Part shown: one piece after another, positions 45,812 to 51,932 of the stretch
How positions within the stretch are numbered: position 1 is the stretch's first letter
Layout of the letters: every line of letters begins with the position of its first letter
Source: Sphingomonas arvum
GTDB taxonomy: Bacteria; Pseudomonadota; Alphaproteobacteria; Sphingomonadales; Sphingomonadaceae
Reading direction: 5' to 3'
Assembly (NCBI RefSeq): GCF_026013565.1
Contig: NZ_JAPDOB010000002.1
Location: forward strand, 186,001 to 250,000
Length of the DNA: 64,000 nucleotides
The notes under the pieces: model-generated
The model's database searches: none
Seen by the model: only the letters and a program-made list of their open reading frames with translations
What the model was told of the DNA's origin: nothing
Translations under genes and position numbers: made by a program

Positions 45812-47833
45812 ATGTCCAAGATGTTCCGAATCTCGCTTCCCGACGGATCCGTCCGGGAAATGCCCGAAGGCTCGACGCCCGCCGATGTCGCGGCGGCGAT
45901 TGGGCCGGGCCTCGCCAAGGCGGCAATCGCCGCGCGCGTCGATGGCGAGCTGCGCGACATCACACGCCCGTTCGAGGGCGACGCACAGCTGGCGCTGGTC
46001 ACGGCCAAGGACGAGAAGGACGCGCTGGAGCTGGTCCGGCACGACTTCGCCCACGTCCTCGCCGAGGCGGTGCAGAACCTTTACCCCGGCACGCAGATCA
46101 CCTTCGGCCCGGCGACGGACGACGGCTTTTACTACGACTTCGCGCCCACTGCCGAGCGCGGGGCCTTCACCGAGGAGGACCTGCCCGCGATTGAGGAGGA
46201 AATGCGCCGCGTCATTGCTCGCGACGAGCCGCTGATCCGCGAGGTGTGGCAACGCGAGGACGTGCGCGATCACTTCCAGCGCACCGGCGAGGCGTTCAAG
46301 GCCGAGTGGGTGATGGAACTCCCCCCTGGCGAGACGATCACCATGTACCGCTCCGGCCGTGGCGAGAGCGCCTGGCTAGACCTGTGCCGCGGTCCGCACC
46401 TCGCCTCCACCGGCAAGCTCGATCCCCAAGCGTTCAAGCTGACGCGGGTGTCGGGCGCGTACTGGCGCGGCGACCCCAAGAACCCGATGCTGAGCCGCAT
46501 CTACGGGACGGCCTGGCTCAACAAGAAGCAGCTCTCCGAACACCTCACGCGCCTGGAGGAGGCCGGCAAGCGCGACCACCGCAAGCTCGGCCGGGAGATG
46601 GACCTGTTCCACCTCCAGGAGGAAGCGCACGGCTCCATCTTCTGGCACCCGCAGGGCTACCTCGTCTGGCGCCAGCTGGAGAGCTACATGCGCCGCGCGA
46701 TCGACGCAGCCGGCTACCAGGAGGTCAAGACCCCGCAGATCATGGACGCGCGCCAGTGGGAGCAGAGCGGCCACTGGGGCAAGTATCGCGAGAACATGTT
46801 CGTCATCCCCGATGAGGTGCCGAACACGGAAGACGAGGGCCCGGTCATCACCGGCGACGCCGACTGGATGGCGCTTAAGCCGATGAACTGTCCTGCGCAC
46901 GTGCTGATTTTCCGCCAGGGCATCAAGAGCTACCGCGACCTGCCGCTGCGGCTGTACGAGAACGGCTGCTGCCACCGCAACGAGCCGCACGGCGCGCTGC
47001 ACGGGCTGATGCGGGTGCGCCAGTTCACTCAGGACGACGCCCACATCTTCTGCCGCGAGGACCAGATCGTCGATGAGGTCCGCGCCTTTTGCGAGCTGGC
47101 CGATCGCATCTATCGCGACTTCGGCTTCACCTACTCGATCAAGCTGGCGCTGCGGCCGGACAAGCGGTTCGGCAGCGACGAGGATTGGGACAAGGCCGAG
47201 AACGAGCTGCGCGACGCGGTCGTCAAGGCGGGGCTGGCGACACCCGAATATGGCTGGGAAGAGCTGCCGGGCGAGGGCGCCTTCTACGCGCCCAAGCTCG
47301 AATGGCACCTGACCGACGCCATTGGCCGTACCTGGCAGGTCGGCACGATCCAGTCCGACCGCGTGCTGCCCGAGCGGCTCGACGCGTCCTACGTCGGCGA
47401 GGATGGCGAGCGGCACCGGCCCGTCATGCTGCATCGTGCCATCTTCGGCTCCTACGAGCGGTTCATCGGTATCCTGATCGAGCATTATGCCGGCAAGTTC
47501 CCGCTGTGGCTGGCGCCGACGCAGGTGGTGGTGGCGACCATCGTCTCCGACGCGGACGGCTATGCGGCCGATGTCGCGGCGCGGCTGCGGGCAGCAGGCC
47601 TCAGGGTCGAAACCGACACGCGCAACGAGAAGATCAACTACAAAGTGCGCGAGCACAGCCTGGCCAAGGTTCCGTTGCTGCTGGTCGTCGGCAAGCGCGA
47701 AGCGGAGGAGGGCACGGTCGCGCTCCGTCGGCTCGGCTCGGAGGAACGCCAATTGGTTATGAGCCTGGACGAGGCGCTCGCCGCGATCGCGGCCGAGGCG
47801 GTCGCACCGGACCTTGCCGCCAAGCCGGACTGA
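45812..47833 (+). CDS. thrS: Threonyl-tRNA synthetase
   Basis: ThrS charges tRNA(Thr). The 673-residue product has the N-terminal TGS domain ([19 protein letters not shown]) and the editing domain with [12 protein letters not shown]. The class II core includes the zinc ligand Cys in MKPMNCPAH-type [27 protein letters not shown] and [17 protein letters not shown] are also present. The anticodon-binding domain at the C-terminus includes [20 protein letters not shown] 45812 is chosen, with a GGGG motif upstream; ATG 45821 is possible. It is divergent from the XRE operon. Confidence 0.97.
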
Positions 47834-48155
47834 GCTGGAGGGCCGATGGCTGCGCCTCGTCCGCGAGGAACTGCCGACGGTCGCTTCGGATCGCGGGTGG
47901 CCGATCCGCAACGACCATTGCTTCGCGCGGGTGCTGCTCGACAATGCCTGCGGAGGCTGCTGGTACGATCACGTGGCCGGCCGCCCCGCTTATCGCCATG
48001 CGTCCGACGAATTGCTCGGGCGAGCCCTCGCGCTTGGCGGGCAGGTGCTTGCGAACCACGTCGATCTGACCGAATTGAATCGCCGCTCACTTGCGTGGCG
48101 GGGCAAGCTGGCCAGCCTGAGCGGCTTGCAAACCGACGCGGCCCCGCCACATTGA
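47814..48155 (+). CDS. Small uncharacterised protein between thrS and infC (GNAT-like)
   Basis: A 113-residue product beginning at TTG 47814, overlapping thrS by 20 bp. It has [15 protein letters not shown], then a Cys-rich block [21 protein letters not shown] and a late [12 protein letters not shown]. The same small protein is recalled beside thrS in related genomes and is sometimes annotated as a GCN5-related N-acetyltransferase. A full acetyl-CoA-binding fold is not evident in so short a chain. The function is unknown. Confidence 0.6.
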
Positions 48156-48240
48156 GCCGCAAATTGGCGGCGGCACGCGGCTGCCCCCTTCCATTCGGCG
48201 CGCGAACGCCTTAGCTCGCGGCGCTAGAACCAACCGCATC

Positions 48241-48256
48241 AGGAGATTGCGCTATA
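48241..48256 (+). promoter_or_regulatory. Strong Shine-Dalgarno followed by an AUA start codon for infC
   Basis: AGGAG (48241-48245) is spaced 8 nt from ATA (48254-48256), in the infC frame. No ATG, GTG or TTG occurs in frame between the preceding sequence and GTG 48341, which lacks a Shine-Dalgarno. E. coli infC uses AUU, and IF3 represses its own translation because it rejects such codons. An AUA start would permit the same control. Confidence 0.75.
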
Positions 48257-48796
48257 CCCCCGCCCTTCCGTCGCCCTCAGGCGCCGCCGCAGTTCACCGG
48301 CCCTCGCTTCAATGAGTTCATCCAGTCGCCCAAGGTCCGGGTGATCGATGAGAATGGCGAGAATCTGGGCGTGATGTATACGCGCGAAGCTTACGAACAG
48401 GCCGTCAGCGTCGGCCTCGACCTGGTCGAGATCAGCCCCAACGCCGATCCGCCCGTCGCCAAGTTCCTCGACATCGGCCGCTTCAAGTATGAAGCGCAGA
48501 AAAAGGCCAACGAGGCCCGCAAGAAGCAGAAGACGCAGGAGATCAAGGAGATCAAGATGCGTCCCAACATCGACGACCACGACTACGACACCAAGATGAA
48601 GAAGGTGGTCGAGTTCCTGGAGGAAGGCGACAAGGTCAAGGTGACCATGCGTTTCCGTGGTCGCGAAATGGCTCACGGCCAGCTCGGCATGGCGGTGCTG
48701 CAGCGGGTCGCCGAGGCGACCGGTGAGATCGCCAAGGTCGAGGCCCATCCGCGCATGGAAGGCCGCCAGATGCTGATGGTGCTTGCGCCCAAGTAA
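48254..48796 (+). CDS. infC: Translation initiation factor IF-3
   Basis: IF-3 binds the 30S subunit, checks the start codon and keeps subunits apart. From the AUA at 48254 the product is 180 residues, the usual length. It begins with a Pro-rich tail ([11 protein letters not shown]), then the conserved N-domain [22 protein letters not shown] and [18 protein letters not shown]. The linker [26 protein letters not shown] and the C-domain [18 protein letters not shown] follow. Starting at GTG 48341 would delete about 29 residues of the conserved N-domain. Unlike many genomes, rpmI and rplT do not follow. Confidence 0.92.
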
Positions 48797-48833
48797 CCAT
48801 CTGCCGTTACTGACATTGCCGTAAGGTGACGCT

Positions 48834-48870
48834 GCGCCGCAGCAAGAGAATAGCTCTTTTGCTGCGGCGC
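48834..48870 (+). terminator. Hairpin between infC and the TonB receptor gene
   Basis: GCGCCGCAGCAA (48834-48845) and TTGCTGCGGCGC (48859-48870) form a perfect 12-bp stem with a 13-nt loop, 38 bp after the infC stop. There is no U-tract on either side, so it may be an infC terminator of the tractless kind or a structured leader of the receptor gene. Confidence 0.45.
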
Positions 48871-48995
48871 ATCATGTTGCAGGCGCGCTACAGGTGAGAC
48901 CGATTGCTGGTTGCAACGGTTCCCCTCGCTTCCTTCACGTTCACGCCTGCTTTAGCTCTCTCCGGCGACTATTACGTTTCCGGAGGGGTTTTCAC

Positions 48996-51932
48996 ATGCG
49001 CAAGTCCATTTGGCTGCTGTCGGCAGGCCTGTTCGCCCTGTCTACGCCAGCCTTCGCCCAGCAGACCGACACCGACCAGGGCGGGACTCAGCCGACCGAC
49101 GGCGCCACGACCGAGGCCGGCGCCGTTGCGCAGTCGGACCCGACGCCGGAAACCCAGGCCCAGAACCAGAACGTTGGTGACATCGTTGTCACCGCGACCC
49201 GCCGCAACGAGGCCCTGTCCGACGTTCCGCTGGCCGTCAGCGCGGTCACCGCGACGCAGCTGGAGAATACGGGCGCGACCGACATCCGCCAGCTGAACCA
49301 GGTTTCGCCCTCGCTGCTCGTGTCCTCGACGTCGTCCGAAGCGGGCGCGGCCGTGGCCCGCATCCGCGGCATCGGCACCGTTGGCGACAACCCCGGCCTG
49401 GAAAGCTCGGTCGGCGTGTTCATCGACGGCGTCTATCGCTCGCGTACCGGTACCGGTCTCACCGAACTCGGCCCGATCGACCGGATCGAGGTGCTGCGCG
49501 GGCCGCAGGGCACCCTGTTCGGCCGCAACACCTCGGCCGGCCTCATCTCCGTCATCACCGCCCGTCCGAGCTTCACGCCGAGCGCTTATGGCGAAATCAC
49601 GGTCGGCAACTACGACTATCGCCGCCTTGAACTGGGCGCGACCGCGGGCCTGACCGAGTCGATTGCCGCCCGCCTCGACGGCGTCTACCTGAAGCGCGAT
49701 GGCCTGCTCGACGACGTAGTTTCCGGCCGCAGCATCAACAACCGCGATCGCTGGCTGCTGCGCGGCCAGTTGCTGTTCAAGCCGAACGACGACTTCTCGT
49801 TGCGGCTCATCGGCGACTATTCCAAGCGCAACGAGGAATGCTGCGGCGCCGTCTTCCTGCCGGCCAGCGACACGGTGGGGACGCCCAACGGCGCGCAGAC
49901 GCAGCCGTCGACCATTGCCGCCATCGAGCGCGGCTTGGGCGGCATCATCCTCGACGATCCCTATGATCGCGACGTGGCCATCACCCCGGGCCGCAGCTAC
50001 CGCCAGGACGTGAAGGACGGCGGCCTGTCGGCCGAGGCCGTGTGGGATTTCGGCGGCGCGGAGCTCACCTCCATCACCGCCTACCGCTACAACAACTACA
50101 TCCGCGGCCAGGACGCGGACTTCAACAGCCTCGACATCCTGTATCGCGACGATGACGGCGGCTCGTACAACCGCTTCAAGACGTTCAGCCAGGAGCTCCG
50201 TTTTCAGGGCACCACCCTGGGCGGCCGGCTCGACTGGCTGGTCGGCGGCTATTACGCGAACGAGAAGCTGCGGGTTCGTGACAATCTGGCGTACGGCGCG
50301 GACTACAGCCGCTACGCCAACTGCCTCGTTGCGCTGAACTTCGCGCAAGGGCTGCAGGCCAGCGCCATCCCGCAGGTGGCGGCGCTTGGCGGCACCCTGG
50401 TCAGCCCGACGTCGGCGACCTGCGTCAACCCGGTGACCGCGCCGACCGTGCGGACCTTCTTCACCGGCGCCACGCAGACCGTGTTCGACGCCTTCGCCCG
50501 CACCGGCGTGTTCGCAGCGCCGGTGTTCGGCAACAGCGGTTTCAGCAACGTCGCCACGGCGTTCGGCGCGCCCGGCCGCAACTTTACCGGTGTCGCGATC
50601 GACGACATCTACAACCAGGAAAGCAACAACCTTGCGCTGTTCACCCACAACATCTTCACCATCGCCGATGGGCTGAAGCTGACCGTGGGCGCCCGCTACA
50701 CGCGGGAGAAGAAGACTCTGGACATGTCGCTGCGCGACACCCAGCCGCTCGCCGCGAACCTGTGCACCCTCTACTCGACGGCGCCCGGCCTCGGTTCGCT
50801 GCAGCAGGTGCCTTGCGTGATCCCGAGCCTGCCGGGCGGCGCGATCGACCAGAAGGACAGCCGGACGGAAAGCAAGCTGTCGGGCACCGCGGTGCTGAGC
50901 TACAAGCCGACCGACCAGATCCTGACCTACGCCAGCTACTCGCGCGGCTACAAGGCGGGCGGCTACAACCTCGACCGGTCGGCGCTGTCGCGCTACGTCG
51001 CGCTGAACAGCTCGGCCGTCCCGGTCGCCGGCGCCGTCTGCCCGACGACCGGCGCGGTGCCTGCCGGCTGCGTCGCGGCCGGCGGCCTGGCCAGCATTGG
51101 TCAGCTGGAGTTCAAGCCGGAGATCAACAACGCGTTCGAGCTGGGCGCCAAGTACAATGGCAACGGGATCGACTTCAATGTCGCCCTGTTCCGCCAGCTG
51201 TTCCGCGACTTCCAGCTGAATACGTTCAACGGCGTCAACTTCTTCGTCGAGAACATCAACAGCTGCGGCGACGACCTGGGCGGCCTCGACCAGGACAACG
51301 TGCAGCAGGTTGGCGGCGTGCCGACCTCCACGGGCGCCTGCACCGGCAAGGTCAAGTCGGGCGTGAAGAGCCGCGGCATCGAGTTCGAACTGTTCAGCCG
51401 GCCGATCGCCAACGTGAACTTCAACTTCGGTGCCACGGTGGCTGACACCAAGTACCGCAACAATCTGGTCGGCGCCGATGGCCGGGCGCTGTCGACCGCG
51501 CTGTTCCAGCTGCCGGGCCGCCGCCTGTCCAACAGTGCGCTGTGGACGGTCAGCTCGTCCATCGCCTGGACCCCGCCGATCGGCACCAGCGGCCTGCGCG
51601 GTCTCATCTACCTCGATGCCCGTCACCAGTCGGCGTTCAACACCGGTTCCGACCTCGATCTCGAGAAGATGGAGAACGGCTACACCCAGGTGAACGGCCG
51701 CATTGGCCTGCGCGGCCCGAACGGCATGTGGGCGGTCGAGCTGTGGGCGCAGAACCTGTTCCAGGAGGACTACAAGCAGGTGGCGTTCGACGGCACCCTG
51801 CAGGGCAGCTGCACGGTCCGCGGTGCGCAGCAGGGCTTCTGCTCGCCGCTGCCGAACCGGGCGACCCAGCTGTTCGGCGCCTTCCTGGCCGAGCCGCGGA
51901 CCTTTGGTCTGACGCTGCGCGGCAAGATCTAA
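48996..51932 (+). CDS. TonB-dependent outer-membrane receptor
   Basis: A 978-residue outer-membrane transporter with GGAGGGG upstream of ATG 48996. The signal peptide (about 1-23) is followed by an acidic linker and the TonB box region DIVVTATRR. The plug domain has VPLAVSAVTATQLENTGATDIRQL, VFIDGVYRSRTG and RIEVLRGPQGTLFGRNTSAG. The barrel contains repeated aromatic strands and ends RTFGLTLRGKI with a late NLFQEDYKQV. This subgroup (many in sphingomonads) imports varied carbon compounds or siderophores; the ligand is not predictable. Extracellular loops hold an unusual number of cysteines. Confidence 0.94.
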   Translation: MRKSIWLLSAGLFALSTPAFAQQTDTDQGGTQPTDGATTEAGAVAQSDPTPETQAQNQNVGDIVVTATRRNEALSDVPLAVSAVTATQLENTGATDIRQLNQVSPSLLVSSTSSEAGAAVARIRGIGTVGDNPGLESSVGVFIDGVYRSRTGTGLTELGPIDRIEVLRGPQGTLFGRNTSAGLISVITARPSFTPSAYGEITVGNYDYRRLELGATAGLTESIAARLDGVYLKRDGLLDDVVSGRSINNRDRWLLRGQLLFKPNDDFSLRLIGDYSKRNEECCGAVFLPASDTVGTPNGAQTQPSTIAAIERGLGGIILDDPYDRDVAITPGRSYRQDVKDGGLSAEAVWDFGGAELTSITAYRYNNYIRGQDADFNSLDILYRDDDGGSYNRFKTFSQELRFQGTTLGGRLDWLVGGYYANEKLRVRDNLAYGADYSRYANCLVALNFAQGLQASAIPQVAALGGTLVSPTSATCVNPVTAPTVRTFFTGATQTVFDAFARTGVFAAPVFGNSGFSNVATAFGAPGRNFTGVAIDDIYNQESNNLALFTHNIFTIADGLKLTVGARYTREKKTLDMSLRDTQPLAANLCTLYSTAPGLGSLQQVPCVIPSLPGGAIDQKDSRTESKLSGTAVLSYKPTDQILTYASYSRGYKAGGYNLDRSALSRYVALNSSAVPVAGAVCPTTGAVPAGCVAAGGLASIGQLEFKPEINNAFELGAKYNGNGIDFNVALFRQLFRDFQLNTFNGVNFFVENINSCGDDLGGLDQDNVQQVGGVPTSTGACTGKVKSGVKSRGIEFELFSRPIANVNFNFGATVADTKYRNNLVGADGRALSTALFQLPGRRLSNSALWTVSSSIAWTPPIGTSGLRGLIYLDARHQSAFNTGSDLDLEKMENGYTQVNGRIGLRGPNGMWAVELWAQNLFQEDYKQVAFDGTLQGSCTVRGAQQGFCSPLPNRATQLFGAFLAEPRTFGLTLRGKI

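Follow-up and report, generated by a model that had tools for sequence, protein, structure and literature searches.

Translation of infC, which encodes translation initiation factor IF-3 (IF3), almost certainly begins in Sphingomonas arvum at an AUA codon that is positioned by an AGGAG Shine-Dalgarno (SD) sequence, as judged by comparison with relatives. The gene is located in a 64,000-nucleotide stretch of the genome (the window), and positions are counted from the first letter of this stretch (Table 1). The initial annotation had described an AGGAG, a distance of 8 nt, and an ATA opening the infC frame, and all of these positions were as given there, with the spacer at 48246 to 48253. Its statement that the frame contains no ATG, GTG, or TTG ahead of the GTG at 48341 was also upheld in the window (locus L001), as counted from the TAG stop codon at 48212. 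The AGGAG-ATA motif alone was not significant, because 0.75 occurrences of AGGAG-N7-9-ATA were expected by chance per window and one was observed; conservation was the decisive evidence.

Table 1. Positions of infC and of features near its start in the window
Feature	Position	Strand	Remarks
Possible -10 element, CTTAGCT block	48210..48216	+	~40 nt before the start; similar blocks in relatives; putative function
In-frame stop codon TAG upstream of infC	48212..48214	+	
Shine-Dalgarno sequence AGGAG	48241..48245	+	8 nt ahead of ATA; GGAG core kept in family loci
infC start codon AUA	48254..48256	+	Assigned by comparison with relatives
infC, translation initiation factor IF-3	48254..48796	+	180 codons from AUA, plus stop
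First canonical in-frame start codon, GTG	48341..48343	+	Likely to be mistaken for the start by gene callers; cuts into IF3_N

The product of the open reading frame (ORF) that begins with AUA was IF3. In a profile search it matched TIGR00168 with 228.4 bits, IF3_N with 95.4 bits, and IF3_C with 134.9 bits; the Pfam domains were over the cut-off, and both IF3 domains are encoded by the gene.

The initial annotation had suggested that a rare codon kept at the same spacing in related sphingomonads would support the assignment, and this was the case in every one of the 145 distinct loci of the family Sphingomonadaceae, which had either ATA (113 loci) or ATC (32 loci) at the start position. ATA was present in all 30 loci from the genus of the window (L001-L030). 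The 71 distinct loci in an 80-locus Sphingomonadaceae set had ATA (47) or ATC (24), with a slight bias to Ile because the query for this set included residue 1, and 44 further loci from the genus and the family had ATA (36) or ATC (8). The queries for the genus, order, and class searches began at residue 30. The genus search matched 35 of 37 genomes, including that of the window, of which 30 became loci; genome G018 was added via the order search. The 80-locus set was kept from 589 matches and included many metagenome-assembled genomes and one record titled 'Arthrobacter', and all 80 were treated as Sphingomonadaceae on the basis of sequence.

Among the bases upstream of the start codon in the 145 family loci, constraint fell mainly on the GGAG core, which was found at a fixed distance (G at -12 in 138 loci, G at -11 in 143, A at -10 in 136, and G at -9 in 136). 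Codon +3 specified Pro in 143 of the 145 loci, with an entropy of 0.12 for the amino acid versus 1.28 for the codon. Thus, codon +3 is synonymously free but Pro is kept, which indicates that selection acts on the encoded protein in this frame immediately downstream of the ATA. Protein-level constraint also covered the codons ahead of an ATG that is present four codons into the gene in many relatives. As judged from these patterns, codon-wise constraint starts at the ATA.

Several other features of the family loci were observed. Many Sphingomonadaceae loci, for example L039, have ATG ATG four codons past the AUA or AUC start, where a gene caller would probably start, with a loss of only four residues. 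Pyrimidines predominated just before the start (C or T at -2 in 140 of 145 loci and T or C at -1 in 142 of 145; positions 48252-48253 in the window). A U at -1 could pair with A37 of the initiator tRNA and thereby aid a weak start codon. The 3' end of the 16S rRNA, which carries the anti-SD sequence, was sought in the genome: a long pattern gave no match, and the lone match to a 15-mer had a mismatch, with no rRNA recognized around it by Rfam, so that this end is masked or missing or the pattern was poor. AUU, the form used by Escherichia coli, was absent from all 145 distinct family loci (L001-L136 and L166-L187), in which AUA and AUC alternate freely. The lack of AUU in the family is a hint that which of AUA, AUC, and AUU is used may itself be tuned.

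The use of ATA at the start differed from its use elsewhere in the gene. In the genus, ATA was the codon at the start in 30 of 30 loci versus 1 of 260 internal Ile codons of infC, and in the main set of loci from the class Alphaproteobacteria the corresponding values were 199 of 252 versus 89 of 2,234. A tree constructed from DNA of the 145 family loci required at least 19 changes between ATA and ATC and none to ATG or ATT, while 20 shufflings of the labels gave 26 to 31 changes. A protein tree of 253 main-set loci required at least 40 start-codon changes, or 36 with the ATA and ATC rows alone, a number that is probably inflated because the protein is short. A change from A to G is a transition that would yield the best start codon, yet it is hardly seen, which argues that selection maintains a third base other than G. 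ATG was found at the infC start in none of the 145 family loci and was called in only 2 of 314 alphaproteobacterial loci, although some of the 17 uncalled loci possibly have ATG, and this distribution argues indirectly for selection against AUG. In thrS, which served as a control gene, a canonical codon was present within six codons of the conserved N terminus in 50 of 50 loci. The SD rule applied to the same 50 thrS loci called ATG in 21, GTG in 1, and a far-upstream ATN in 3, and found no SD sequence in 25.

The non-AUG start extended well beyond the family. Among the 314 alphaproteobacterial loci there were 219 with ATA, 62 with ATC, and 9 with ATT (290 with AUH), 7 with a canonical codon (ATG 2, GTG 2, TTG 3), and 17 that were uncalled. 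The main set of 256 distinct loci had ATA in 199, ATC in 50, and ATT in 3 (252 at SD distance), ATG in 1 (L231), and no call in 3 (L164, L192, and L255). In 57 of the 252 loci there was no ATG, GTG, or TTG in the whole open frame ahead of the IF3 core. The infC of Sphingomonas daechungensis (L035/L022) likewise has AUA and lacks these three codons ahead of the core. A tally of main-set codons located at the SD spacing, made without regard to codon identity, gave ATA (196) and ATC (52) among 811 in-frame codons, and in either other frame ATA was outside the 14 commonest codons listed. The 58 further, more divergent loci had ATA in 20, ATC in 12, and ATT in 6 (38 with AUH), TTG in 3, GTG in 2, ATG in 1, and no call in 14. 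Thus, six of the seven canonical calls and 14 of the 17 uncalled loci were among the 58 most divergent. In several of the uncalled loci (for example, L355, L357, and L388), an in-frame ATG that lacks an SD sequence is present and may be the start. Nearly all of the better-conserved Alphaproteobacteria thus have the non-AUG start, which is less strictly kept in divergent lineages, and the canonical starts called in 7 of 314 loci indicate that it is not indispensable. The canonical-start loci (L231, L373, L377, L380, L383, L392, and L394) are candidates for lost or altered autoregulation.

These counts depend on how loci were collected and called. Of the genomes matched in the order search, 78 of 145 were read; all 143 matched in the class search were read (84 from that search at first, one through the search of other Pseudomonadota, and the 58 more divergent ones that form the further set). 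Removal of loci with identical 110-nt upstream stretches reduced 295 oriented loci to 278 (256 alphaproteobacterial and 22 other). Starts were allowed from 18 codons (main set) or 14 codons (further set) before residue 30. The main-set rule favored ATN over a better-scoring canonical codon in L155 (ATG) and L216 (TTG), and the further-set rule did likewise in L346 and L352; without this preference the further set would have ATC in 10 and TTG in 5. A wider first rule placed the starts of L003, L008, L014, and L157 elsewhere.

Other Pseudomonadota were examined with a rule that had no preference for ATN. The 62 distinct loci, from 63 of 109 matched genomes that were chosen either for their score or to represent a family with one or a few members, had ATC in 21, ATT in 19, and ATA in 13 (53 of 62 with AUH), GTG in 1, TTG in 1, and no call in 7. 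In L328, for which TTG was called, an ATC also has an SD sequence. Because AUH starts are also found in other Pseudomonadota, the non-AUG infC start is a general one, and what is alphaproteobacterial about it is the preference for AUA. The initial annotation had regarded AUA as a parallel solution in sphingomonads. This suggestion was not supported by the AUH starts in 290 of 314 alphaproteobacterial and 53 of 62 other loci, which point to an inherited feature with a drifting third base. The AUA form, which is the commonest in Alphaproteobacteria, was most likely inherited rather than invented in the genus of the window. We slightly favor a broader proposal, based on the same comparisons, in which AUA would be the ancestral or default infC start of Alphaproteobacteria; the third base would move between A and C, and less often U, but in most of the class would be prevented from becoming G, so that IF3 feedback is carried by a single class of bases, with loss only in some divergent lineages that have gone to ATG, GTG, or TTG. 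The 58 divergent loci made this proposal less probable than it had been on the main set.

Other positions for the start were weighed against these data. It is extremely improbable that the AUA is untranslated and that the true start is a canonical codon further downstream, which would be GTG 48341 in the window and an ATG a few codons inside the gene in many relatives. Such a start is what the standard, program-made ORF listing of the window gives, as it begins infC at GTG 48341, and an in-frame ATG is found after the ATA but ahead of the core in 20 of the 30 loci of the genus. However, the window has no such ATG; in relatives the distance of the ATG from the conserved SD sequence is greater by at least 12 nt; and the pattern of change at codons +2 and +3 is that of coding sequence. 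The start at GTG 48341 was rejected because it truncates IF3_N and is preceded only by a weak AAGG. It lowered the scores by 15 bits for TIGR00168 and 17 bits for IF3_N, and the IF3_N match began at profile position 13 versus position 2 from the AUA, with a loss of 11 positions. The initial annotation had stated that this start would delete about 29 conserved residues; 29 codons would be lost, but not all of them are conserved, as the profile matches begin at residue 17 (TIGR00168) or residue 20 (IF3_N). It had also stated that GTG 48341 has no SD sequence, which needs correction in that AAGG is present at 48332-48335, 5 nt upstream; this weak match is forced by the conserved Lys-Val codons AAG GTC (K27 and V28 were invariant in a six-row alignment). 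The further claim that gene callers routinely shorten infC was borne out here only in the mechanical sense that the ORF listing does so, and misannotation is described in the available portions of papers on Streptomyces and Xanthomonas (PMC5472188, PMC5559785). Equally hard to credit is a start upstream of the ATA, which would make the ATA an ordinary Ile codon. A canonical codon is available upstream in the open frame of the available stretch in 93 of 252 alphaproteobacterial loci. However, the window has none after TAG 48212, which refutes such a start there unless a codon other than ATG, GTG, or TTG is used, and a stop codon directly precedes the ATN in 10 of 252 loci and lies within six codons of it in 46 (e.g., L144, L146, L209, and L210). 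Furthermore, an ordinary Ile codon would be expected to be ATC, which accounts for 471 of the 545 Ile codons, versus 24 for ATA, in 27 long uncurated ORFs of the 69% GC window.

With the start placed at AUA, it is very likely that IF3 represses translation of its own AUA-started mRNA in a negative feedback loop. The initiator tRNA (anticodon CAU) pairs with only the first two bases of AUA, with a C-A mismatch at the third position, and 30S complexes without G at the third codon position are destabilized by IF3. High IF3 would then decrease infC translation and low IF3 would let translation pass, a negative feedback that would keep IF3 homeostatic in the manner known for E. coli infC with its AUU. 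In the portions of the literature available, start codons with a 3' G escape IF3 discrimination, unlike the noncanonical AUU, AUC, and AUA (PMC4611024), and weak third-base pairs are excluded by IF3 (PMC10158994). The initial annotation had considered AUA to be suited to IF3 autoregulation. The AUA start itself is strongly supported by ATA or ATC in 145 of 145 family loci, and autoregulation is its most likely purpose, given the example of E. coli and the avoidance of AUG. What the sequences themselves show is where the start lies, that it is conserved, and that relatives have A or C, more rarely U, and almost never G as its third base. An improbable explanation is that AUA is the start but merely a weak codon that keeps IF3 scarce, with no IF3 feedback. 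In S. aureus reporters of other genes (cvfC1, ccpN, and citZ), AUA or AUU gave ~10% of AUG expression in poor medium, and in rich medium the value for ccpN reached as much as 30%, according to the accessible text of PMC13009471, and TTG or GTG is used by 5 of the 58 divergent alphaproteobacterial loci. However, GUG, UUG, or a weaker SD sequence would suffice to keep IF3 scarce; instead, the SD sequence is kept and the codon stays in the class rejected by IF3. In addition, the 256 main-set loci had no GTG or TTG calls and one ATG call, with the reservation that two ATN calls overrode a better-scoring ATG and TTG.

The surroundings of infC differed from the E. coli gene order, in which infC is followed by rpmI-rplT. 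An upstream ORF ending at 47833 is thrS, and a 113-codon ORF (47814-48155) between thrS and infC had no Pfam match; its relatives were found only in L002, L005, and L031 among 295 loci searched, although in many of these the upstream DNA covered is too short to reveal it. An ORF judged from its sequence to be TonB-receptor-like lies directly downstream of infC. Thus, rplT is not directly 3' of infC, as it is in a thrS-infC-rpmI-rplT operon with L20 control. The sole rplT match of the genome is at position 72,666 of the same contig (infC is at 234,254), ~160 kb away, which indicates a gene order unlike that of E. coli and makes L20 control of a shared operon unlikely. A structured RNA leader was rejected, as no Rfam match was found in 47700-49100 at an E value of ≤1 and the fold of 48218-48300 was no more stable than those of shuffled sequences (z, 0.62). 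A sigma-70 consensus scan of 47700-49100 detected no promoter. By eye, a block of the CTTAGCT/CTAATT type (genus) or TATAT type (other Sphingomonadaceae) was noted mostly 36 to 43 nt before the start, and the listed block forms, which were chosen by eye afterwards and without a chance control, were present between -50 and -28 in 93 of 144 relatives. This block may be the -10 element of a promoter that serves infC specifically and gives its mRNA a short leader. A CTT-rich stretch was often seen ~20 nt further upstream of the block.

The principle of a non-AUG infC start dates to work on E. coli infC in the 1980s. The present analysis corrects the N terminus of an essential protein in the S. arvum genome and, probably, in those of many other members of the class. 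In addition, it reveals a large natural experiment in which A, C, and U, but hardly ever G, are tolerated as the third base of the infC start. The protein that polices bacterial start codons begins with a codon of the type it rejects, very probably in order to limit its own production. Within the literature searched, a clade-wide preference for AUA in Alphaproteobacteria was not found in print, nor were peptide, ribosome-profiling, or reporter data on any alphaproteobacterial infC start. The infC start was not mentioned in the main texts of papers on Ruegeria, Caulobacter, Sinorhizobium, and Zymomonas. No published report of an AUA infC in Alphaproteobacteria was recognized in literature searches, whose reach did not include supplementary tables and most subscription papers. 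One further publication reportedly names infC and may already cover an AUA infC.

The infC gene of the window belongs to the known E. coli-type non-AUG infC starts: it has AU plus a non-G base at SD distance, there is no canonical alternative, and the non-AUG codon is kept in relatives. As in E. coli infC, for which feedback has been demonstrated according to the available text of PMC5472188, the same gene has a start of the same class in the same place with an SD sequence present, and the statement of the initial annotation that the AUU start of E. coli infC is repressed by IF3 agrees with that source. In contrast to E. coli infC, the codon is AUA rather than AUU and rplT is distant. AUU has also been given as the infC start in both E. 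coli and Bacillus subtilis (PMC1805508, in part). Staphylococcus aureus infC has the identical AUA codon in the same gene, so that AUA for infC is already published; in the part of PMC13009471 available, this start was mapped by Ribo-Ret and autoregulation was proposed by the authors. However, S. aureus belongs to another phylum and has an extended SD sequence and experimental start mapping, whereas the start in the window was read from sequence. The infC genes of Streptomyces (AUC; PMC5472188) and Xanthomonas (ATT, found from peptides; PMC5559785), as described in the accessible portions of these papers, likewise have a misannotated non-AUG start of the AUH type. They differ from the window in the third base, although the AUC form is also found in 32 of the 145 loci of its family. 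Streptomyces sigR is a further example of a noncanonical start gated by IF3, in that its GTC start is repressed by IF3; unlike infC here, it is another gene with another codon and not a case of IF3 autoregulation (PMC5472188).
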